A stretch of DNA of 64,000 nucleotides, from assembly GCF_032852305.1 (NCBI RefSeq), contig NZ_CP136594.1, positions 2,765,501 through 2,829,500 on the forward strand, written 5' to 3'. A program made the translations under genes and the position numbers. Under the pieces are notes generated by a model. That model made no database searches and was not told the origin of the DNA. It saw only the letters and a program-made list of their open reading frames with translations. The stretch's first letter is position 1; each line of letters starts with the position of its first letter. This stretch comes from Parasphingorhabdus sp. SCSIO 66989 (GTDB lineage: Bacteria; Pseudomonadota; Alphaproteobacteria; Sphingomonadales; Sphingomonadaceae). Shown here piece after piece: positions 51,980 through 62,533 of this stretch.

Positions 51980-52003
51980 AGCGCTGGTTACGCTGCCAGC
52001 GCT
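51980..52003. terminator. Hairpin between fliS and the FleQ-like activator
   Basis: Perfect stem AGCGCTGG/CCAGCGCT around eight bases, over the stop codon of the minus-strand gene and 12 bases past the fliS stop. Placed to stop both converging transcripts, although it lacks a long T run. Confidence 0.5.
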
Positions 52004-53046
52004 TCCTTGCGCACCAGATTGTGGCGTTTCATTTTTTCAACAAAGGTCGTGCGCTCCAACTGCACCAATCGCGCAGCAGCAGCCACGACGCCATCGGCTT
52101 GGGCCAAGGCCATGCTGAGCAGACGCCGCTCCTCCTGCAGCAGATGCTCTTTCAAAGAAAATGCGGGTGGCAGTGCATCTTCAAGACTATCGCCACGCAT
52201 AGTCGCCAATTCAGCTTTTCCTGCTGCAGCCGGAAAAGGCTCAATCTTTGCCGAAATCGCTCCCGGATGATGTCCATGGTGCATCAGCTTTGCAATCTGC
52301 TCTGCGCCGATAAGATCATCAGGGTATATAATCTTGGCGCGCATCACCACATTGCGCAATTCGCGCACGTTTCCAGGCCAGTCATGGTCTTGAAGATAGA
52401 GCATGGCTTCACGGGTAAAGCGCGTAAAAGACTGAGAGCCATCCTTGTTACACAGGAAATGCCGGATCAACGGCTCAATATCATCGCGACGCTGATTGAG
52501 AGCGGGCACACGCAAGGGCAAGACGCACAGGCGATAGAACAGGTCTTCGCGGAACTCGCCTTTGCCGATCCGCGTTTCGAGACACTGGTGCGTTGCTGCA
52601 ATCATGCGGACATCGACAGCAATATCTTCCGCGCCGCCTACCCTGCGCACCTTGCCGTCTTCCAAAATGCGCAGCAGACGTACCTGCATCGCCGAGGTCA
52701 TTTCGCCGATTTCATCAAGGAATAATGTGCCACCGTCTGCGCGTTCAAAATGGCCCCGGCGCTGATTATCGGCACCTGTGAAGCTGCCTTTCTCATGGCC
52801 GAAAAACTCTGCTTCAACCAGATCCTTGGGTATAGCGCCGCTATTCACTGCGACAAATGCCTGATCCGCACGAGGAGAGACAGCATGCAGCGTGTTGGCG
52901 ATGATCTCCTTGCCGCAACCTGAGGGGCCGGTAATCAATACAGAGGCATTGGTCGCGGCGGCAAATTTCAGAAAGCATCGTACTTCGTGAATGGCTGCAC
53001 TGTTACCGATGATCGCCTGGTCAATCGCGATTTCGGTCTCTGGCAT
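51988..53046 (-). CDS. Sigma-54-dependent transcriptional activator (FleQ-like, no receiver domain)
   Basis: 352 residues from the ATG at 53046 (GGGGGA upstream); an open extension to 53085 has no ribosome site. Starts almost at once with the AAA+ domain: Walker A GPSGCGKE (about 33-40), GSFTGA (the sigma-54 loop, with Ser for Ala), Walker B TLFLDEI, and FREDLFYRLCVLPLRVP. The C-terminal helix-turn-helix (SMALAQADGVVAAAARLVQLERTTFVEKMKRHNL) resembles that of FleQ. No sigma-54 or sigma-28 site was found upstream, so it may be the top-level activator of the cascade. Confidence 0.88.
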   Translation of the reverse strand: MPETEIAIDQAIIGNSAAIHEVRCFLKFAAATNASVLITGPSGCGKEIIANTLHAVSPRADQAFVAVNSGAIPKDLVEAEFFGHEKGSFTGADNQRRGHFERADGGTLFLDEIGEMTSAMQVRLLRILEDGKVRRVGGAEDIAVDVRMIAATHQCLETRIGKGEFREDLFYRLCVLPLRVPALNQRRDDIEPLIRHFLCNKDGSQSFTRFTREAMLYLQDHDWPGNVRELRNVVMRAKIIYPDDLIGAEQIAKLMHHGHHPGAISAKIEPFPAAAGKAELATMRGDSLEDALPPAFSLKEHLLQEERRLLSMALAQADGVVAAAARLVQLERTTFVEKMKRHNLVRKEALAA

Positions 53047-53212
53047 ATTGCGTCCCCCATCATTATGACTGCATGGCTCTGGCATCGGGCCTAGGCAGCT
53101 TTTCTTTGCAGGCCGTTTAGCGGCTTAGGTAACATTGTGTAACGTAAGTTTCGTAAATGCAGGGTTAACCTCGCGGCAATTTCAGAACATGTTCACCGGC
53201 CCTGAAGCACAG

Positions 53213-53482
53213 CTAGGGTCAGGACCCATTAATCGCATGGATCGATGTGGCGTGCTGCGGGATTAGCTGTAAGGAGAGGCGTGCAGCAGGCAGTTATTCT
53301 GCCTGCAATCGCCTCGACGTAGCAGATCGCACGCAGCACGCCACCGCGCATCGGCTTGGTCAAAAAAGGCCAGATCGTCGTCGCTCAATCGTCCCATAGA
53401 ACCACTATGCTCCTCATTCGCTCCTATATCTGGCCTTTTCTGACCAAGTCTCGACCATGTGCTTAATGAGTCCTGACCCTAG
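53213..53482. mobile_element. 270-bp MITE-like element with nested hairpins
   Basis: Terminal inverted repeats of 20 bases with one mismatch (CTAGGGTCAGGACCCATTAA on the left; the complement of TTAATGAGTCCTGACCCTAG on the right), ending in CTAG or TA on both sides, which could be a target duplication. Inside are further inverted repeats: GTGGCGTGCTGCG/CGCAGCACGCCAC (53246-53258 and 53332-53344), GCAGGCAG-TTATT-CTGCCTGC (about 53287-53307), and TTGGTCAAAAAAGGCCAGAT/ATCTGGCC...GACCAA (from about 53357 to 53450). No ORF. It looks like a non-autonomous transposable element. The whole gap 53047-53781 has no gene. Confidence 0.65.
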
Positions 53483-53488
53483 GGAAAA

Positions 53489-53508
53489 GTGTCATATTTG
53501 GTTTACAC
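53489..53508. promoter_or_regulatory. Candidate regulator site GTGT-N12-ACAC upstream of the BLUF gene
   Basis: GTGTCATATTTGGTTTACAC fits the TGT-N12-ACA pattern bound by PpsR/CrtJ-type repressors, with one more symmetric base pair at each end. It lies 274 bases before the AppA-like gene and seven bases outside the MITE-like element. Only the symmetry is seen; no PpsR gene is in the window. Confidence 0.35.
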
Positions 53509-53781
53509 TTGTGCAGCCGTTCTATAGGCTACGAATCACCATCATTATTTGCATTGGTGGTCACAGCAGGAACTGACCGGAAGGGAGGCCGTGTTTGTTC
53601 CTTCGTTCGGTGAAACTGCGCTTTCACGATTGCTGCGGCTTTACTGTGTTGAAATCTGATGGTGACAAACCTCCGGCGCGGCGCGCTGGCGGAGACTCCA
53701 AGCGGAGCGCCTGTGGGGGGCGTAGATAACCGTTTCTAGCTTCCGAGGGCGCCTGGCCAGAGCGATGGCAGGAGAGGCGCG

Positions 53782-54828
53782 GTGACTATAGCCCAGATCG
53801 ATAAGCAGTCCGTCAAAGGGCCGGATCATAATGATCTCGCGATGCTGCTCTACAGCAGTTCCGCCACCCAGGAATTCGATACAAACAAGCTGGACCAATT
53901 GATCAGCAGAGCACAACGCCGCAACCATAGCATGGGCGTTACCGGTGCCGTTTTTTATGAGCATGGCCGCTTTCTGCAATGGCTTGAAGGCCCGGCCGAT
54001 GCAGTCGATACCCTTTATCATGATATCGGTCAGGACTCGCGCCACACCGATATAGAGATGGTCTGCTATGGCCGCACCGACCACAGGCTTTTCTCGCAAT
54101 GGGATATGCATCTGTTTGACAAGCGCGGCCAGATTGAGAAGGCGCTGGACGGCTTCTCTCCCAACCCGCTCTACTATGATGATAAACAGGCGATTCGAGC
54201 AGCCGCGCAAAATCTGTATCGCGGCAATGATGCGCCTTTTGCCGCCATGCTGGCCAGCAAAAACCATGTCTTGTCTGACGAGATTGCTTTGTGCCACACG
54301 CTTATGCGCGACTATAATCGCATGTGGCAGGCGGATATCTGCTCTGAATTTGATATCACGCTTGGCCTGACACAGTTGCTCGCCGCCTTTCGCAAATGGC
54401 GCCAATTTGAAGATGTGCCAGTTCCGGAACCCGGACGCCGCCCTTTGCTGGTGGTGACGCTTCCCGGCGAACCCCATATCGTCGGTGCAACACTTGCTTC
54501 AGAAGCACTGATTGATGCAGGTCGTGATGTCACACTGGAATTTCCGACAAGCTATCAGGCCTTGGGAGACACCGTCGCCCGCGCCAATTATGGCGGCGTC
54601 ACCGTGGTGACCAGCAGCGTCTTTTCGCGCGAGCACTGGACCCATAGAATGCACGACACAATCACCGCGGCGCGCAATGCCCTTGCCTCGGACAGCCGCA
54701 TCGTCAATTGCGGAAAATTCGGCTGTGCTTCGCCCAATCTTGCCAAAAAGACAGGATTCGACGCGTGCTGCTGTTCGGCAAATGAGCTTCCGGGGTTGTT
54801 CGGCGGGGTGTCCCACGGTCACCACTGA
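53782..54828 (+). CDS. AppA-like blue-light sensor: BLUF domain plus SCHIC/B12-binding-like domain
   Basis: 348 residues from GTG with GGAG upstream. Residues 19-115 form a BLUF (FAD-binding) domain with every key residue: Tyr24, Asn48, Gln66 (in GRFLQWLEG), Trp107 and Met109. These have exactly the spacing of AppA (21, 45, 63, 104, 106). A helical linker follows, then a Rossmann-like B12-binding-type domain starting LLVVTLPGEPHIVGATLASEALIDAGRDVTL (about 220-250), with His in the place used for heme or cobalamin in SCHIC domains. The tail has five Cys (310, 315, 329-331), another AppA feature. In Rhodobacter AppA opposes the repressor PpsR. Here no photosynthesis gene is in view. Confidence 0.85.
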   Translation: MTIAQIDKQSVKGPDHNDLAMLLYSSSATQEFDTNKLDQLISRAQRRNHSMGVTGAVFYEHGRFLQWLEGPADAVDTLYHDIGQDSRHTDIEMVCYGRTDHRLFSQWDMHLFDKRGQIEKALDGFSPNPLYYDDKQAIRAAAQNLYRGNDAPFAAMLASKNHVLSDEIALCHTLMRDYNRMWQADICSEFDITLGLTQLLAAFRKWRQFEDVPVPEPGRRPLLVVTLPGEPHIVGATLASEALIDAGRDVTLEFPTSYQALGDTVARANYGGVTVVTSSVFSREHWTHRMHDTITAARNALASDSRIVNCGKFGCASPNLAKKTGFDACCCSANELPGLFGGVSHGHH

Positions 54829-54894: not shown

Positions 54895-57800
54895 TTAGAA
54901 TTCTCCTGCAATACCGGCGCGAACTGCAGTGGAATTGCCGCCGGCATAGCTGACGCCAGCGGTGACAGCGAACGGTGTTTCGCTATCGAGGCGATGCATC
55001 AGGCCGAGGGAGAAACCTACTTCTCCACGATAGACCGCGAAGTTGCTGGCATAGCTTGTCTTTCCTACCTCACTCGGGAAATGCGGGTTTGCCTGTGCTG
55101 CTATCGCTGCAATTCCGCGCTGTGCGTCTCTGTCGACGGTATTGGCGAGATCAAAGGCCGCGACCATCTGCCCTTCCAGCGTAGCAACGCGTCCGTCCAG
55201 CTGGCCCAGAGAGGCCAGGCTGAGGCTGCTTGTCCCCAAATTGCCCATGGCATCGGTGGTGACCAGGCTGACAGCGCCTTGTTGCGCCGCGTTGCTGGCA
55301 TCAGACGTGATGCCCGCCGCGCGATAGGTGGAGACCTCTGAACCTAAGGCAATCAGGTTGGGCCGATCCGCAACAGCACCGGTACCAATGGCAACCGCAC
55401 CATCGGCTGTCGCCATGGCACCATTGCCTAAAGCAACAGCGCCATTGCCGTTGGCGACATTAAGGTTGCCGATCGCCACCGCACCCGTGCCGTTGGCGCT
55501 GTTGGTGGCGCCCAGAGCAACGGCTCCAGTGCCGGTTGCGGTATTGGGATTGCCGATAGCAACAGCACCATCACCGCTGGCCATATTGCTATAGCCGATT
55601 GAGACGGCCTGGCCGTCCTGTGCCATGGCCTGATAGCCGATTGCCACGGAACGATCGCCTGCTGCATTGCTCTCGCCTCCCAGTGCGACCGCATCCATGC
55701 CGGCGGCGCTGGCTCCGGCGCCGGTGGAGTTGACCGCGAGATACTCCAGTTCTTCGCTATTGGTCTCTGCCAGTGCCAGCGCTGCATCCGCGTCCAGTTG
55801 TGCCTGCATGGCTTCACTGCGTGCCGTATCGGCATCGGCCTGCGCTTCGACAGCACGCTCAAAGGCGGCGTCAGCCTGTTGCAATGCTTCAGCAGAGTCC
55901 GCGCCAGCCTGGGTTGCCGTCATCATTGCATCCCGTGCTTCATCGCGCGCCTGATCGGCTGTCTGCTGCGCGGTGGCAGCATTGGCAAAGGCATCATCGG
56001 CCCGCGCCTGCGCTGCAGCGGCGTCCGCCAGCGCCTGGGTCGCATCGCCTTGCGCATTGGCAGCGGCAGCGGCATTGTTGGCGATAAGGTCGTCTTGAGC
56101 CTGATTTTGCGCCAGCGCCGTATTCGCGTCCGCCAGCGCATTATCGGCAGTAGATTGCGCAGAGGCCGCATTGGTGATCGCACTATACGCGGTCGATTGC
56201 GCAGCCGCTGCATCGGACAGCGCCTGACTGGCATCATTTTGCGCGCTTGCGGCGGCCGCGCTGTTGCCAGCAATGAGGCCATCCTGCACGAGATTATGTG
56301 CCAAGGCGTCGTCAGCACTGGTTTGAGCATTCGCCGCATCGGACAACGCCTGGCTCGCATCGCTTTGTGCCGCATCGGCAGCAGCCTGAGCTGCGCTGGC
56401 CGAGCCCTGCACCGCCTTAAGCTGTGCCACATTGGCCGCGTCGCTATCTTGCACCCCGGAGGCCACATTGACAATCTGTCGTTCATTGCCCGGTGACCCA
56501 ATCGAAAGACTATTGGCACGATCAGCCACAGAACCCGCCCCCAGCGCGACCGAATTGACGACACCCATGCCGACATTCGCGCCATTGCCAAAAGCGATAC
56601 TGTTTGTACCGCCAGCGCCGACCAGAGCATTTGGTCCTATCGCAATGCTGCCATCTCCGGACGCCAGCGCGCCGGTCTCGGTCGAGTTTACATCAAAATA
56701 GGCGAGCTGAACGGCATTTGCATCGGCATCGGTCTGCGCATCTTGGGCCGCGCTCTGCGCATCCGCCGCATCGACCAGCGCCTGATTGGCATCGCTTTGC
56801 GCCGCATCTGCCACCAGTCGTGCGTCAGCCGCATTGTCCAAGGCCAGAGTCGCGTCCGACTGGGCTGCATCTGCGCTCATTTGCGCATCCGAGGCATCGG
56901 CCAATGCCTGTGTCGCATCCAGCTGCGCGGCGTCGGCAATCATTTGCACGCCATCCAGCTGAGCAAGATTAACGGCATCCGTGCCCTGTGTGCCTGCCGC
57001 AACATTAGTGATCTGCCGCTCGCTGCCGACTGCGCCAACCGAGAGGCTGTTTATGCGATTGGCTACCGAGCCATTGCCCAGAGCCACGGAGTTGTCGGCG
57101 GAGGCATCGCTAGCGCGCCCAATGGCTACAGCATCTGCACCAACTGCACTGGCGGCAAGGCCGGTGCTGTTAATCGCGATAAAGGCATTGCCGCCGGTCG
57201 AGACATTGGCAATCGCAGTATTCAACTGTCCGATAGTGGCCGCGTCATTATCATCCGTGCCGCCTGCGACGTTGACGATCCGGCGTTCATTGCCCGCTGC
57301 GCCGACGGAGACCGTATTGTCCTGATCGGCTATGGAACCGGCGCCGATGGCAACAGAGTTTGCGCCGGTTACGCTCGCCGCGCCTGTGCCATTGGCGGCG
57401 AAGAAAGCCAGCTCAGCCGCATTGCTATCCGCATCTGCCTGAGCATCGGCCGCATCCGCCAAAGCCTGTGTTGCATCGGACTGCGCTGCATTGGCGCTGG
57501 CTTGTGCATCAGAAGCATCGGAGAGCGCCTGTGTCGCGTCGCTTTGGGCGCCGTCCGCAGTGGTTTGCGCTGTTGCCGCATCTGCGAGAGCCTGGGTTGC
57601 ATCTCCCTGCGCGCTTGCTGCATTAATTAGGGCCTGATCGGCATCGCCTTGGGCAGTGTTCGCGCTGGTTTGCGCGGCGGCCGCATCGCTCAACGCCTGT
57701 GTCGCGTCCAGCTGCGCGGCATCGGCGATGGCCTGCACACCGTCAAGCTGGGTCAGATTGACTGCATCGGTGCCCTGTGTACCGGAAGCAACATTGGCAA

Positions 57801-60800
57801 TTTGCCGCTCGCTGCCGACAGCCCCGACCGAGACGGTGTTGGCCCGATCTGCGACAGCGTTGGCGCCAAGAGCAACAGAATTGATGGCATTGGCCTGTGA
57901 CAGCTCGCCAATCGCCACCGCATCCTCGCCCAATGCCACAGGCTGTGCGCCCGTCGAGTTGGCCACGATATAGTCGCTATCCGCTCCAGCCGAAACGCCC
58001 GAGATCGCGCTGTTGAGCTGGGCAAGGTTGACGGCATCTGTATCCTCTGTGCCGGCTGCCAGATTGACAATCTGACGCTCGCTTCCGGCGCTGCCAACGG
58101 AAACGGTGTTGGCGCGGTCAGCCACCGAAGCAGCGCCCAGGGCAACCGAATTGACCAAATTGGCTTGCGCATTTGCGCCCAAGGCAATGGCATTTTCAGC
58201 CGTAGCGCTGGTCAATCGACCGATGGCCACAGCGCTATCCGCTCCAGCTATGCTTTCCGCACCCAAACTCAGCGCGCTGGCGCCTGAGCTATTAGCTTGA
58301 ATGCCAAGAGCGACCGAGTCGCGACCACCTGCATTCGACGAGACCCCAATTGCCAAGGCATTGCTAGCGCTTGCATTCGCGGACGTCGCAATCGCTACGG
58401 CATTGCTAGCGCTAGCATTAGCACCAGACGAAATTGCCACCGAATTTGAGGCGCTTGCCTGCGATCCAACCGCAATTGCTACGGCATTGGTATCGCTTGC
58501 ATTCGCCTCAACCCCAATGGCGACCGCGTTTAGCGCGCTTGCCCGCGATAATTCCGCGATGGCCACGGCATTTAGCTCTGACGCTTGCGCCCCATCACCA
58601 ATGGCAATCGCATTCAGCCCCGTCGCTTGGGTCAATGATCCCAGGGCGATAGCGTCGGACGCGTTTGCCAATGCATCGATGCCAACCGCGATGGCAGAGT
58701 TGCCGCTCGCGCTGGAGCCAAAGCCACTAGCGATTGCGGCTTCGCCAGCAGCCGACGACAGCGTTCCAACAGCCAATGACTGAGCACCGATCGCCTGTGC
58801 ATCCTCGCCCAGCGCGATGGCATCATCGCCGGTTGCGCTGGGCTGCGCCCCGGTGGAATTGACATCGAGATAGTCGTCATCGGCGGTCGCAGCGTTGAGC
58901 TGGGCAAGATTTACCGCGTCGGTGTCTTCGGTTCCCGCGGCAACATTGACGATCTGGCGCTCGCTGCCTGCGGCGCCGACAGAGATTGTGTTCTCGCGGT
59001 CAGCTATGGCATTTGCACCGAGTGCGACTGATCCCACGGCATTGGCAGCTGTATCTGCGCCAAACGCCAAAGAGTTCTCCGCCGCAGCCAGGGCATTGGA
59101 GCCGAAACTGGCCGAATTCTCTGCTTGAGCGATAGACCTTTTGCCGATTGCGATAGCCTCGTCTGCTTCGGCAGATGCACCATCCCCAAGGGCAGTTGCT
59201 TCGACTCCCGCCGCGTTAGCGCCAGTGCCGATAGCAGTTGCAGTGGTTCCTGAAGCGATGCTTCCTGGCCCGATAGCAATACCGCCAGGTCCAGTTGCTT
59301 CACTTAATTGGCCAATTGCAATCGCCCCGGAAGCGGTGCTTCGCGCATTCGGACCGATAGCAGTGGCGAAATTCGCTTCGGCGATCGCCCCGAAACCAAA
59401 AGCTTGCGACTGCGCTCCGCTTGCCTCGGCCTGCGGACCCAGCGCAATCGCATTGAGACCACTGGCTATGGGCTGCCTCGCGGTAGAATTAACGTCGAGA
59501 TAGTCGTCATCTGTGGTAGCAGCGTTGAGCTGGGCGAGATTGACCGCATCGGTATCTTCGGTGCCGGCGGCGACATTGACGATCTGCCGCTCGCTACCTG
59601 CAGAGCCGACTGAGACCGTGTTCGCCCGGTCTGCGATTGAGGCCCTCCCCAGTGCGACCGATAATGAAGCATTTGCCTCCGCATCTCCACCAAGCGCCAC
59701 AGAGTTATCCGCCACAGCCAGCGCTTGAGAGCCGAGCGCAGTCGAATTACTGCCCTGCGCATTGGCATCATCACCAACAGCCGTTGCATTGTCTGCTTCG
59801 GCGATGGCCGAGCTGCCGATAGCAGTTGCCTGGAAGCCCATTGCATCAGCGCTGTTGCCAACAGCAAGAGCTCCAAAGCTGGTAGCAACGGTTCCAGACC
59901 CGATGGCCATAGCGCCAGTCCCATCCGATGTGCTGAGACGCCCCAGTGCGATGGAGTTTGAGCCACTGCTTGTTGCATCACGGCCGATGGCGATGGCACT
60001 TACTCCAAGCGCCTGCGCGCCATCTGTTCCGCTGTCTTCGCCATCACCGCCAATAGCAATGGCGCCATCCGCGGTGGCGTCGGACGCGCGACCTACGGCC
60101 ACTGCCTGTCGCCCTGTAGCTTGCGCGATGCCGCCAATGGCAACTGTATCGCCTCCACTTGCTACCGCAAGGGTGCCGAAAGCGACACTTGATGCGCCGG
60201 TCGCACTCGCTTCTGTGCCGACACTGGTCGCACCCGTCAAAGTTGCCACGGCCAATTGGCCGACAGCCACAGCTCCGGTGGCGCTGGCAACAGCATCAGC
60301 CCCGATGGCGGTCGCCAACCCGCCCGTTGCCTGAGCGCCCAGACCGTCGAGACCAGAGCTGTCGCCGCCGATGGCGACGTTACCTTCATCTGTAGCGATG
60401 CTGTTATTGCCGATGGCGATGGCATTGTTGGCATCGGCAAAGGCGTTGGTGCCCAGAGCGCTCGCATTGTCCGCGTTGGCAAAGGCATTGTTGCCCATCG
60501 CGCTTGCATTGATCCCAGTGGCGAAAGACCCTGTGCCGAACGCCAGTGAATTGGCACCAGGAGCTTGGGCGCCCGAGCCAAAGGCCTGAGCGGAGAGGCC
60601 GCTGGCTTGAGAGCCGGTCCCGACCGCAACGGCGAATACTCCGCTCGCATTGGCACTCCGGCCAAGCGCGATACCTTCTAAGCCAGCGGACGACGAAGCG
60701 GATCCAATGCTGATGGAATCGCCGCCTGCCGCTCTTGCATCGAAGCCCATGGCAAGCGATGCCTCGCCCCCGGCATTGGCCCGCCGACCAAAGGCTGCTG

Positions 60801-62457
60801 ATGAAGGCCCACTCGCCAAGGAATCGTTGCCGATAGCGGTTGCGCGACTATCGGCTGCGGTCGCGCGGACGCCTATGGCCGTTGCGTTGATCGCATCGGC
60901 AGCAGCGTTATCACCGATCGCAAGGCCGCCATCAGCGCGCGCGACGGCGTCGTGGCCAATCGCCACCGCCGAAACGCCAGAACTGTTGGCCTGGTCTCCC
61001 ACAGCAATCGAAAGGGTATTGCTGGCAACTGCGCTATCGCCGATTGCCAGCGATTCTTGCCCACTGGCGATTGCGCCCGCGCCCAGGCTGATCGCTTCGG
61101 GATTGGAAGCGACAGCATCGCCGCCAATCGCAATCGTCTCGGCACCAGAAGCCTGCGCGCCCAGAGTATTACCATCTGAAAGATCGCCGCCTATTGCGAT
61201 AGAACCGGAATTGGTCGCACCGCTTTGCTGCCCCAGGGCAACTGCGGCGAAGCCGGTAGCCAAGGAATCCGCGCCCACTGCAACAGTTCCGTCGGTTTGT
61301 GCGCTCGCTCTGGTGCCCAAGCTAATGGCGTTTGATCCAACAGTAGTGGCCGACCGTCCCAATGCGATGCCAAACGCTCCCATTGTGTTGGCCTCTTGGC
61401 CGATGGCGATGCTTTCCAGGTTTATCGCAGATGCTCCAACACCGAGCGCAATCGCATCCAATCCGCTGGCCGTCGGCAGCGTCCCGGTGGAATTAACGTC
61501 GAGATAGGCGGCACTTGCGGTTGCGGCGTTGAGCTGGGCGAGATTGACCGCGTCTGTGTCCTGGGTTCCCGCTGCGACATTGACGATCTGGCGCTCACTT
61601 CCGGCAGAGCCCACAGAGACCGTGTTGTCGCGGTCAGCGAAGGAGCCCGCGCCGAGCGCGACCGATGCGAGACCATTTGCGGTAGCATTCGACCCGAAGG
61701 CGATGGCTTCATCGGCATTGGCGGCGGTGTCCGTACCAATCGCGATGGCCTCGGCCGCCAGCGCCTGAGCGCCAACATTGCCGTCGTCACCACCATCACC
61801 GCCAATAGCAATCGCCCTGTTCTCGGTTGCCTCGGAGCGATCACCAACACTGAGTGAAGCAATGCCGCCCGCATCAGCCTCTCGGCCCAGTGCGATGGCG
61901 GCGGTTCCAATGGCATCCGCATCATCACCTATGGCAACGCTTCGGTTCCCAGACGCAACAGAGGCATTACCAATGGCAACTGTGTCAACAGCTTCTGCTC
62001 TGGAGGCATCGCCGATGGCGATCGCATTTTCTCGGCTCGCCGTTGATTGCGGGCCAATTGCCAACGCGTTCTCACCCTCAGCCAACGAGTTGCGCCCCAT
62101 AGCGAGAGCGCCTTCTGCCAGCGCGTCTGCATTGGAACCCAGAGCGGTTGCGCCATTGCTGTCTGCTGTCGCACCATTACCAAGAGCTGTTGCATTGTTT
62201 CCCGTTGCGGTGGCAGAAGCCCCTATAGCGGTTGCATTATTTCCGGTTGCATCGGCCCCGACGCCGCAAGCCAAGGAGTCGTTGTCACCGTTCGAATTGG
62301 CGCCGCCATCATTGTCGCCCGGGTCTGCGATGCCATTGTCATTGCGATCAAGCAAACAGTCCTCCGCCTGTGCAGGCTCTGGTGTGAGCAGCACAGCGGA
62401 TGCTGTGGCCAGAGCACAGGCAGAAAGAATCGTAGAGCTGAGAAGACGGACACGCAT
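54895..62457 (-). CDS. Giant trimeric autotransporter adhesin (YadA-like)
   Basis: 2,520 residues from the ATG at 62457 (GGGAGG upstream). Signal peptide MRVRLLSSTILSACALATASAVLLTPEPAQA. Then an acidic Asn/Asp segment (DRNDNGIADPGDNDGG) that looks like a calcium loop, followed by very many 14-residue left-handed beta-roll head repeats of the type ATAIGxxAxAxG. Eight neck modules (ERQIVNVAAGTxDTDAVNLAQL type) are seen near nucleotides 61,590, 59,590, 58,960, 58,080, 57,810, 57,290, 57,010 and 56,480. Ala/Asp-rich coiled-coil stalks (SDATQALADAADAQ) follow necks 5, 7 and 8. The C-terminal 95 residues, ending in AGIAGEF, are the YadA anchor barrel. It should form a long surface fibre for attachment or self-adhesion. 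It is divergent to the winged-helix regulator. Confidence 0.95.
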   Translation of the reverse strand: MRVRLLSSTILSACALATASAVLLTPEPAQAEDCLLDRNDNGIADPGDNDGGANSNGDNDSLACGVGADATGNNATAIGASATATGNNATALGNGATADSNGATALGSNADALAEGALAMGRNSLAEGENALAIGPQSTASRENAIAIGDASRAEAVDTVAIGNASVASGNRSVAIGDDADAIGTAAIALGREADAGGIASLSVGDRSEATENRAIAIGGDGGDDGNVGAQALAAEAIAIGTDTAANADEAIAFGSNATANGLASVALGAGSFADRDNTVSVGSAGSERQIVNVAAGTQDTDAVNLAQLNAATASAAYLDVNSTGTLPTASGLDAIALGVGASAINLESIAIGQEANTMGAFGIALGRSATTVGSNAISLGTRASAQTDGTVAVGADSLATGFAAVALGQQSGATNSGSIAIGGDLSDGNTLGAQASGAETIAIGGDAVASNPEAISLGAGAIASGQESLAIGDSAVASNTLSIAVGDQANSSGVSAVAIGHDAVARADGGLAIGDNAAADAINATAIGVRATAADSRATAIGNDSLASGPSSAAFGRRANAGGEASLAMGFDARAAGGDSISIGSASSSAGLEGIALGRSANASGVFAVAVGTGSQASGLSAQAFGSGAQAPGANSLAFGTGSFATGINASAMGNNAFANADNASALGTNAFADANNAIAIGNNSIATDEGNVAIGGDSSGLDGLGAQATGGLATAIGADAVASATGAVAVGQLAVATLTGATSVGTEASATGASSVAFGTLAVASGGDTVAIGGIAQATGRQAVAVGRASDATADGAIAIGGDGEDSGTDGAQALGVSAIAIGRDATSSGSNSIALGRLSTSDGTGAMAIGSGTVATSFGALAVGNSADAMGFQATAIGSSAIAEADNATAVGDDANAQGSNSTALGSQALAVADNSVALGGDAEANASLSVALGRASIADRANTVSVGSAGSERQIVNVAAGTEDTDAVNLAQLNAATTDDDYLDVNSTARQPIASGLNAIALGPQAEASGAQSQAFGFGAIAEANFATAIGPNARSTASGAIAIGQLSEATGPGGIAIGPGSIASGTTATAIGTGANAAGVEATALGDGASAEADEAIAIGKRSIAQAENSASFGSNALAAAENSLAFGADTAANAVGSVALGANAIADRENTISVGAAGSERQIVNVAAGTEDTDAVNLAQLNAATADDDYLDVNSTGAQPSATGDDAIALGEDAQAIGAQSLAVGTLSSAAGEAAIASGFGSSASGNSAIAVGIDALANASDAIALGSLTQATGLNAIAIGDGAQASELNAVAIAELSRASALNAVAIGVEANASDTNAVAIAVGSQASASNSVAISSGANASASNAVAIATSANASASNALAIGVSSNAGGRDSVALGIQANSSGASALSLGAESIAGADSAVAIGRLTSATAENAIALGANAQANLVNSVALGAASVADRANTVSVGSAGSERQIVNLAAGTEDTDAVNLAQLNSAISGVSAGADSDYIVANSTGAQPVALGEDAVAIGELSQANAINSVALGANAVADRANTVSVGAVGSERQIANVASGTQGTDAVNLTQLDGVQAIADAAQLDATQALSDAAAAQTSANTAQGDADQALINAASAQGDATQALADAATAQTTADGAQSDATQALSDASDAQASANAAQSDATQALADAADAQADADSNAAELAFFAANGTGAASVTGANSVAIGAGSIADQDNTVSVGAAGNERRIVNVAGGTDDNDAATIGQLNTAIANVSTGGNAFIAINSTGLAASAVGADAVAIGRASDASADNSVALGNGSVANRINSLSVGAVGSERQITNVAAGTQGTDAVNLAQLDGVQMIADAAQLDATQALADASDAQMSADAAQSDATLALDNAADARLVADAAQSDANQALVDAADAQSAAQDAQTDADANAVQLAYFDVNSTETGALASGDGSIAIGPNALVGAGGTNSIAFGNGANVGMGVVNSVALGAGSVADRANSLSIGSPGNERQIVNVASGVQDSDAANVAQLKAVQGSASAAQAAADAAQSDASQALSDAANAQTSADDALAHNLVQDGLIAGNSAAAASAQNDASQALSDAAAAQSTAYSAITNAASAQSTADNALADANTALAQNQAQDDLIANNAAAAANAQGDATQALADAAAAQARADDAFANAATAQQTADQARDEARDAMMTATQAGADSAEALQQADAAFERAVEAQADADTARSEAMQAQLDADAALALAETNSEELEYLAVNSTGAGASAAGMDAVALGGESNAAGDRSVAIGYQAMAQDGQAVSIGYSNMASGDGAVAIGNPNTATGTGAVALGATNSANGTGAVAIGNLNVANGNGAVALGNGAMATADGAVAIGTGAVADRPNLIALGSEVSTYRAAGITSDASNAAQQGAVSLVTTDAMGNLGTSSLSLASLGQLDGRVATLEGQMVAAFDLANTVDRDAQRGIAAIAAQANPHFPSEVGKTSYASNFAVYRGEVGFSLGLMHRLDSETPFAVTAGVSYAGGNSTAVRAGIAGEF

Positions 62458-62533
62458 TTGCAAACCTCCCAAAAACATGCCGACGGCAAGTCATGCTGGA
62501 AGCAGGAAACAATTGCAGCGTCGGGCCGAGGCC

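Follow-up and report, generated by a model that had tools for sequence, protein, structure and literature searches.

The 64-kb stretch of DNA analysed here (the window) carries, at the edge of a flagellar island, a gene whose product joins a BLUF domain to a SCHIC/B12-type domain, and we wondered what this protein senses and which process it controls. An earlier note on this DNA had described it as an AppA-type sensor and suggested that light could set the choice between swimming and attachment. Our reading, drawn from sequence comparison, is that the gene probably encodes an AppA-related light sensor acting on the photosynthesis repressor PpsR, and that this sensor most likely tunes the photosynthesis cluster rather than swimming. 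The features on which the argument rests are collected in Table 1.

Table 1. Positions of the fusion gene, its parts and its surroundings in the window
Feature	Position	Strand	Basis or remark
Sigma-54-type activator with Fis-type HTH, divergent neighbour (flagellar island)	51988..53085	-
Predicted PpsR/CrtJ-type box TGT-N12-ACA (TGTCATATTTGGTTTACA)	53490..53507	.	own-cluster matrix
Promoter-like TTTACA-N17-TAGGCT, overlapping the box	53502..53530	+	by eye from alignment
BLUF-SCHIC/B12-type fusion gene	53782..54828	+	348 aa
BLUF coding region	53836..54117	+	residues ~19-112; Pfam and phmmer; limits approximate
SCHIC/B12-type coding region	54166..54816	+	residues ~129-345, with W182, E189, E230, H232; limits approximate
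Fusion protein parts	BLUF ~19-113, helical cap ~129-207, Rossmann part ~222-345 (residues)		predicted structure, Foldseek, VIA-align
Trimeric-autotransporter (YadA-type) adhesin gene	54895-62478	-	2527 aa; converges on fusion gene

A BLUF domain and a SCHIC/B12-type domain in one protein

The frame of 348 open codons starts at a GTG with GGAG ahead of it. Pfam places the BLUF domain at residues 20-109 (93.8 bits against a cut-off of 25, E 7.3e-27), and AppA ranks first in a phmmer search against solved structures. Specifically, residues 17-112 and AppA 14-109 of 2iyg form a gap-free alignment with a constant offset of three, which agrees with the one-for-one match described in the earlier note; the aligned pairs (fusion/AppA) are Y24/Y21, N48/N45, Q66/Q63, W67/W64, W107/W104, and M109/M106. 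The Tyr, Asn, Gln, and Trp of BLUF photoreceptors are thus all present. A search of the same genome returns a second BLUF gene, which is short (~136 aa), and no others.

For the second domain, phmmer aligns residues 178-347 to chain positions 234-401 of AppA 4hh1, and the Pfam AppA_SCHIC score is 15.4 bits, under the cut-off of 28.6. The predicted structure (34-row alignment, mean pLDDT 72.8, pTM 0.65) has lower confidence in its helical part (129-207). Its top four Foldseek rows are AppA entries (391-397 columns, E 6e-19 to 3e-17, rmsd ~20 A), and among the best 50 rows the only other long alignments are to BlrP1 entries; because the rmsd is ~20 A, the placing of the domains relative to each other in the model is unreliable. 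With VIA-align, the second domain taken by itself matches the photocobilins 8j2w (Z 16.1, 200 aligned, 3.6 A) and 8j2y (Z 15.9), AppA 4hh1 (Z 15.2, 204 aligned, 3.5 A), and AerR 7te2 (Z 13.9, 198 aligned, 4.2 A). Alignment and predicted fold therefore agree on a B12/SCHIC-like second domain, although Pfam AppA_SCHIC stays below its cut-off.

The third part of the AppA plan described previously, a Cys-rich tail, falls away, while the BLUF and SCHIC/B12-like domains stand. The 4hh1 structure is a 406-residue construct titled AppA 'without the Cys-rich region', the match goes to position 401, and the fusion protein terminates one residue past it; by this alignment a Cys-rich region C-terminal to SCHIC is absent. 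The three consecutive Cys of the protein (ACCCSAN) sit within the aligned SCHIC part. This triplet recurs in the congener G108 and in none of 44 named relatives, i.e. the loci left in 40 genomes after one of the 45 found in a named search (L065, a PpaA without BLUF) was set aside.

Cofactor site and descent of the second domain

According to the accessible sections of PMC9144470, cobalamin in AerR has His145 as its lower ligand and is capped from above by W94 and F101; the heme-binding His of AppA, His284, stands two residues off that place, L239 and R246 occupy the cap, and a loop is longer. The AerR numbering was reproduced by counting along the printed AerR sequence (W94 to H145, V190). In the fusion protein, H232 aligns to the AerR His, within an AerR-type axial motif [DE]xHxxG (E230-P-H232-I-V-G235), while the position of AppA His284 holds Glu230, so that on this alignment the protein has no heme-ligand His. 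W182 aligns to W94 and E189 to F101, i.e. the cap Trp is retained and the cap Phe is replaced by Glu. At the places of W94, F101, and His145, every one of the 44 named relatives shows W, E, and H, compared with W, F, and H in 26/26 PpaA rows and L, R, and P in AppA. The loop after the third strand is ~4 residues longer than in PpaA/AerR, a length as in AppA. In the fusion family the ligand and the Trp are thus of AerR type, the loop is of AppA type, and the Phe has been lost.

Among the 34 proteins of alignment A2, Pfam B12-binding matches 33 and AppA_SCHIC 22 at E 0.01; the window protein matches neither, and the other 33 all match B12-binding. The PpaA of the same genome passes the B12-binding cut-off (40.3 vs 32.1). 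Because the family retains the axial His and the cap Trp of AerR, its members in general more likely bind cobalamin than heme; for the window protein, which diverges from the others, the cofactor is less certain. It is unlikely, in our estimate, that the second domain binds no tetrapyrrole in this genus and is a PpsR-binding scaffold driven by BLUF. Such a scaffold would fit the missing B12-binding match, the loss of one Gly from the GG motif, the low model confidence of the helical cap, and a Rhodovulum fusion with no His at that position, but W182, E230, H232, G235, and G311 are retained in both fusion-bearing genomes of the genus.

In a tree of the second domain, one branch separates PpaA rows from BLUF-fused rows including AppA (support 96/94), and the split persists with AerR on the PpaA side (96/88) and with the Rhodovulum fusion added (100/99). 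The simplest reading is a single fusion event behind the BLUF-fused proteins. The window protein and G108 lie nearest AppA (95/83, or 89/63 with Rhodovulum), on long branches. AU tests, with hypotheses chosen after the tree was seen, reject neither their placement with the other sphingomonad fusions (p-AU 0.38) nor with PpaA (p-AU 0.37). The tree without AppA was made by a quick method, and a tree of the BLUF domain gave no resolution, spoiled by one row in a wrong frame (short_L112, 14 residues). The Rhodovulum fusion, annotated as a hypothetical protein, is encoded on the R. sulfidophilum plasmid AP014802 (L113:3917-5068) and has neither the cobalamin His nor a Pfam SCHIC match. A plasmid search at 1e-10 gave 4 records, and in each of them the match covered less than 80% of the query.

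A still less likely account is that the protein functions as a genuine AppA, with a heme-bearing SCHIC domain, redox sensing, and a His shift of no consequence. It draws on the tree position next to AppA, on the motif FxQWLEG common to the window protein, G108, and AppA, and on the AppA-like length of the third-strand loop. It is opposed by the Glu at AppA His284, the Trp in place of the AppA Leu, and the His at the AerR place (structural roles as in the accessible part of PMC9144470), as well as by the absent Cys-rich tail and by a tree place that rests on long branches, with the sphingomonad-fusion grouping not rejected. Because the heme His and the Cys tail are lacking, we place the protein, a BLUF-fused relative, between AppA and AerR rather than class it as AppA.

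Association with photosynthesis genes

The photosynthesis cluster that the earlier note thought the genome might hold lies ~310 kb from the fusion gene. There, pufL and pufM (C1:2506193-2507862) were found by Pfam, ppsR by similarity to solved PpsR (E 2e-29), with the alignment running through the Q-linker helix, and ppaA by its match to AerR (E 5e-18). The same stretch holds what we take, from their sequences, to be bch, crt, tspO, acsF, and hemA.

The fusion is associated with puf across genomes. In a family sample of 199 genomes, the 7 matches at 1e-20 all fall within the 33 genomes with Photo_RC above cut-off. A larger sample of 397 genomes has 17 with a match at 1e-30: in 10 it is single and full-length, in G367 it is split in two within one frame and counted as fused, and in the remaining 6 it covers the second domain alone and was treated as PpaA. 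Of the 11 fused carriers, 10 have puf (Photo_RC above cut-off) compared with 76/397 overall, and the eleventh is an 84% complete genome. The hypergeometric probabilities (P = 1.9e-6 and 3.7e-7 for the two samples) ignore kinship and come from overlapping samples. Of the 76 puf genomes in the larger sample, 66 are without the fusion. A sample of the class gave full-length matches in 3/385 genomes, all of the same family, with the proviso that Cereibacter may not be in that sample; in this and the 397-genome sample no more than five candidates per genome were scored.

Among the 40 named genomes, whose titles point to Sphingomonadales groups save for one 'uncultured Alphaproteobacteria', 37 have Photo_RC (puf) and 39 have PpsR, and four carry two copies of the fusion (L023 and L027, L032 and L047, L039 and L058, L040 and L061). 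Two metagenome bins have the fusion and PpsR and no Photo_RC. In Erythrobacter crassostrea WH158, these searches found neither Photo_RC nor PpsR beside the fusion, which is possibly a relic after photosynthesis loss or has another role. Of the three genomes that represent the genus, one, G023, carries puf and PpsR without the fusion, its sole BLUF match being short. Its PpsR-like genes number two, 65% and 45% identical to the PpsR studied here.

Residues T105, S109, and Q112 of AerR have a role in PpsR/CrtJ contact, according to the accessible text of PMC9144470. The relatives keep them (T in 42/44, S in 40/44, and Q in 44/44), as does AppA, and the window protein differs at two of these three putative contact positions (T197 and L200).

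The region upstream of the fusion gene contains a candidate PpsR-type box, one of five TGTN12ACA sites in the window. Under a matrix of 8 of the 15 TGTN12ACA sites in the genome's own photosynthesis cluster, picked by eye, it scores 14.8 bits vs 9.4 for the next best site of the window, and it stays on top with 15 sites (17.3 vs 12.0) or 7 sites (15.1 vs 9.8). In random first-order sequence, equally good sites number 0.3, 0.05, and 0.18 in every 64 kb with the 8-, 15-, and 7-site matrices, and among 3000 random stretches of intergenic make-up such a site occurs in 0.5%, none, and 0.5%, respectively. One half of the box is TTTACA where TTGACA is expected. The congener G108 has a TGT-N12-ACA at the aligned place (9.7 bits) and also the TTTACA-N17-TAGGCT arrangement, from which transcription of the fusion gene would begin just downstream of 53530. 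Elsewhere in the region the two sequences have little in common except near the start codon.

Sites of this type are also more frequent upstream of the relatives than of control starts, with the caveat that relatives are not independent. At 10 bits or more they precede 7/44 relatives vs 7/515 controls (P = 2.6e-5); the counts are 11/44 vs 69/515 at 6 bits (P = 0.036), 10/44 vs 26/515 at 8 bits (P = 0.0002), 4/44 vs 5/515 at 12 bits (P = 0.003), and 8/44 vs 24/515 for plain TGTN12ACA (P = 0.002). The other 37/44 relatives have no 10-bit site upstream. The pattern TGTYAN7TTKACA, composed after the box was seen, occurs at 8 distinct places in the genome and its reverse at none: three in the photosynthesis region, one here, two elsewhere, and two before genes that, from their sequences, we assume to be FnrL-like and TonB-receptor-like.

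The site before the FnrL-like gene, a near-perfect PpsR-type palindrome (TGTCAAGATAAATTGACA, L114:2005-2022, C1:225704-225721) 53 nt ahead of it, is possibly a PpsR link to oxygen control or the site of another regulator. At window positions 53240-53482 lies a remnant that corresponds to the terminal part of a repeated element and stops ~7 nt before the PpsR-type box; the element has three other copies in the genome at 93-95%, two of them beside a 35-nt inverted copy. For cobalamin riboswitches and other known RNAs, Rfam gave no match up to E 1 in 53000-53900.

As the earlier note had it, the gene stands alone between the flagellar island, represented by the sigma-54 activator with which it shares a 696-nt upstream region, and a giant adhesin of 28 YadA-head and 8 YadA-stalk stretches. 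We compared 48 other loci, i.e. the 44 named ones plus G108, G103, G041, and G057 (G028 and G172 were taken as the same genomes as L050 and L060). Flagellar genes adjoin the fusion in 1/48, namely G108, leaving out a weak sigma-54-activator match (32%) at the edge of locus L034, and photosynthesis-cluster genes adjoin it in 3/48, on the tspO side in L019 and L022 and on the hemA side in L045; flanks span at most ~10 kb and often less, so these counts are lower bounds. Downstream in G108 the adhesin is replaced by genes presumably of an RND pump, judging by sequence. Control of swimming or attachment through the divergent activator or the adhesin, which we rejected and consider very improbable, could appeal to the island-edge position in both fusion-bearing genomes of the genus, to the shared upstream region, and to other short BLUF proteins that regulate motility and biofilm (a table in PMC4844311, seen in part), but the flagellar neighbours recur in G108 alone, the adhesin is convergent and its place differs in G108, and the puf/PpsR enrichment and the PpsR-type box would be left unexplained. 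A regulatory link to photosynthesis alone, which the earlier note had set against a motility role, is what that enrichment and box point to at the level of sequence.

A proposed sensor acting on PpsR and its known counterparts

A PpsR-acting sensor is favored by the BLUF residues, the whole-length AppA matches in Foldseek, and a resident PpsR with its Q-linker helix, together with the puf/PpsR association, three cluster-margin loci on two sides, the upstream box, and the T, S, and Q kept by the relatives. Against it stand T197 and L200 at the contact positions, the lack of a B12-binding or AppA_SCHIC match at 0.01, E. crassostrea with neither puf nor PpsR, the 66/76 puf genomes without the fusion (G023 included), the 45/48 other loci away from photosynthesis-cluster genes within flanks of at most ~10 kb, the TTTACA box half, and the 0.3 chance sites per 64 kb.

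AppA binds PpsR and blue light weakens its hold (PMC4844311, accessible part), and the action of AerR and PpaA on CrtJ/PpsR involves cobalamin (PMC9144470 and PMC10890935, likewise). By analogy, we propose a light- and perhaps cobalamin-dependent control of PpsR by the fusion protein. FAD in the BLUF domain, whose residues are in place, would take up blue light, and the second domain, an AerR/PpaA-derived tetrapyrrole domain in this scheme, would, like AppA, dock on PpsR by its fourth helix, which would meet the Q-linker helix. When light is dim or absent, the protein may keep PpsR off the promoters of bch, crt, and puc; blue light, perhaps together with cobalamin or the redox state, would free PpsR, and pigment synthesis would stop. 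With a PpsR box in front of its own gene, the sensor would be part of a self-reinforcing loop, and the place beside flagellar genes would be incidental.

More tentatively, and with somewhat less than even chances, the protein could be a two-chromophore photoreceptor, with flavin (BLUF) and cobalamin in one PpsR antirepressor, an AerR-AppA intermediate under a PpsR-box loop. If so, blue light and B12 would be read together by one protein, and many aerobic phototrophic sphingomonads would still possess a form that stands between AerR of the cobalamin type and AppA of the heme type. The accessible text of PMC10734443 calls AppA specific to C. sphaeroides, and that of PMC10674011 notes briefly that Porphyrobacter sp. 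ULC335 has a homologue of AppA; that AppA-like proteins occur in this group is thus not itself new. In the literature surveyed, which was accessible in part and included few subscription papers, we found no description of a light input to PpsR in photosynthetic sphingomonads or of a BLUF-cobalamin fusion. The family, present in 40 named genomes, is a concrete candidate for such an input. Given its AerR-type ligand residues and AppA's BLUF fusion, the change from cobalamin to heme and that from a B12 sensor to a flavin sensor could be tested by residue swaps.

Among known systems, AppA of Rhodobacter (Cereibacter) sphaeroides has the same BLUF and SCHIC plan, key BLUF residues, and fold, and is placed in the tree with the fused proteins, apart from PpaA (96/94); unlike AppA, the fusion protein has no Cys-rich tail and carries the AerR-position His and Trp instead of the heme-ligand His. 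AerR of R. capsulatus and PpaA share the cobalamin-site His and Trp (ExHxxG) and the helical cap with a Rossmann fold, but are without a BLUF domain, and the fusion protein departs from them in its Glu for the cap Phe and its loop, longer by ~4 residues. The photocobilins (8j2w and 8j2y; PMC10979010, accessible part) have a similar B12-type fold and set a precedent for two chromophores per protein, although their second chromophore is a bilin, not a flavin, and their architecture is another. LdaP of Dinoroseobacter shibae, as described in the accessible part of PMC10890935, would be a functional parallel in our proposal, being a flavin-based blue-light antirepressor of PpsR in an aerobic phototroph, but it is not a BLUF protein: it carries a LOV domain and looks like a LOV histidine kinase.
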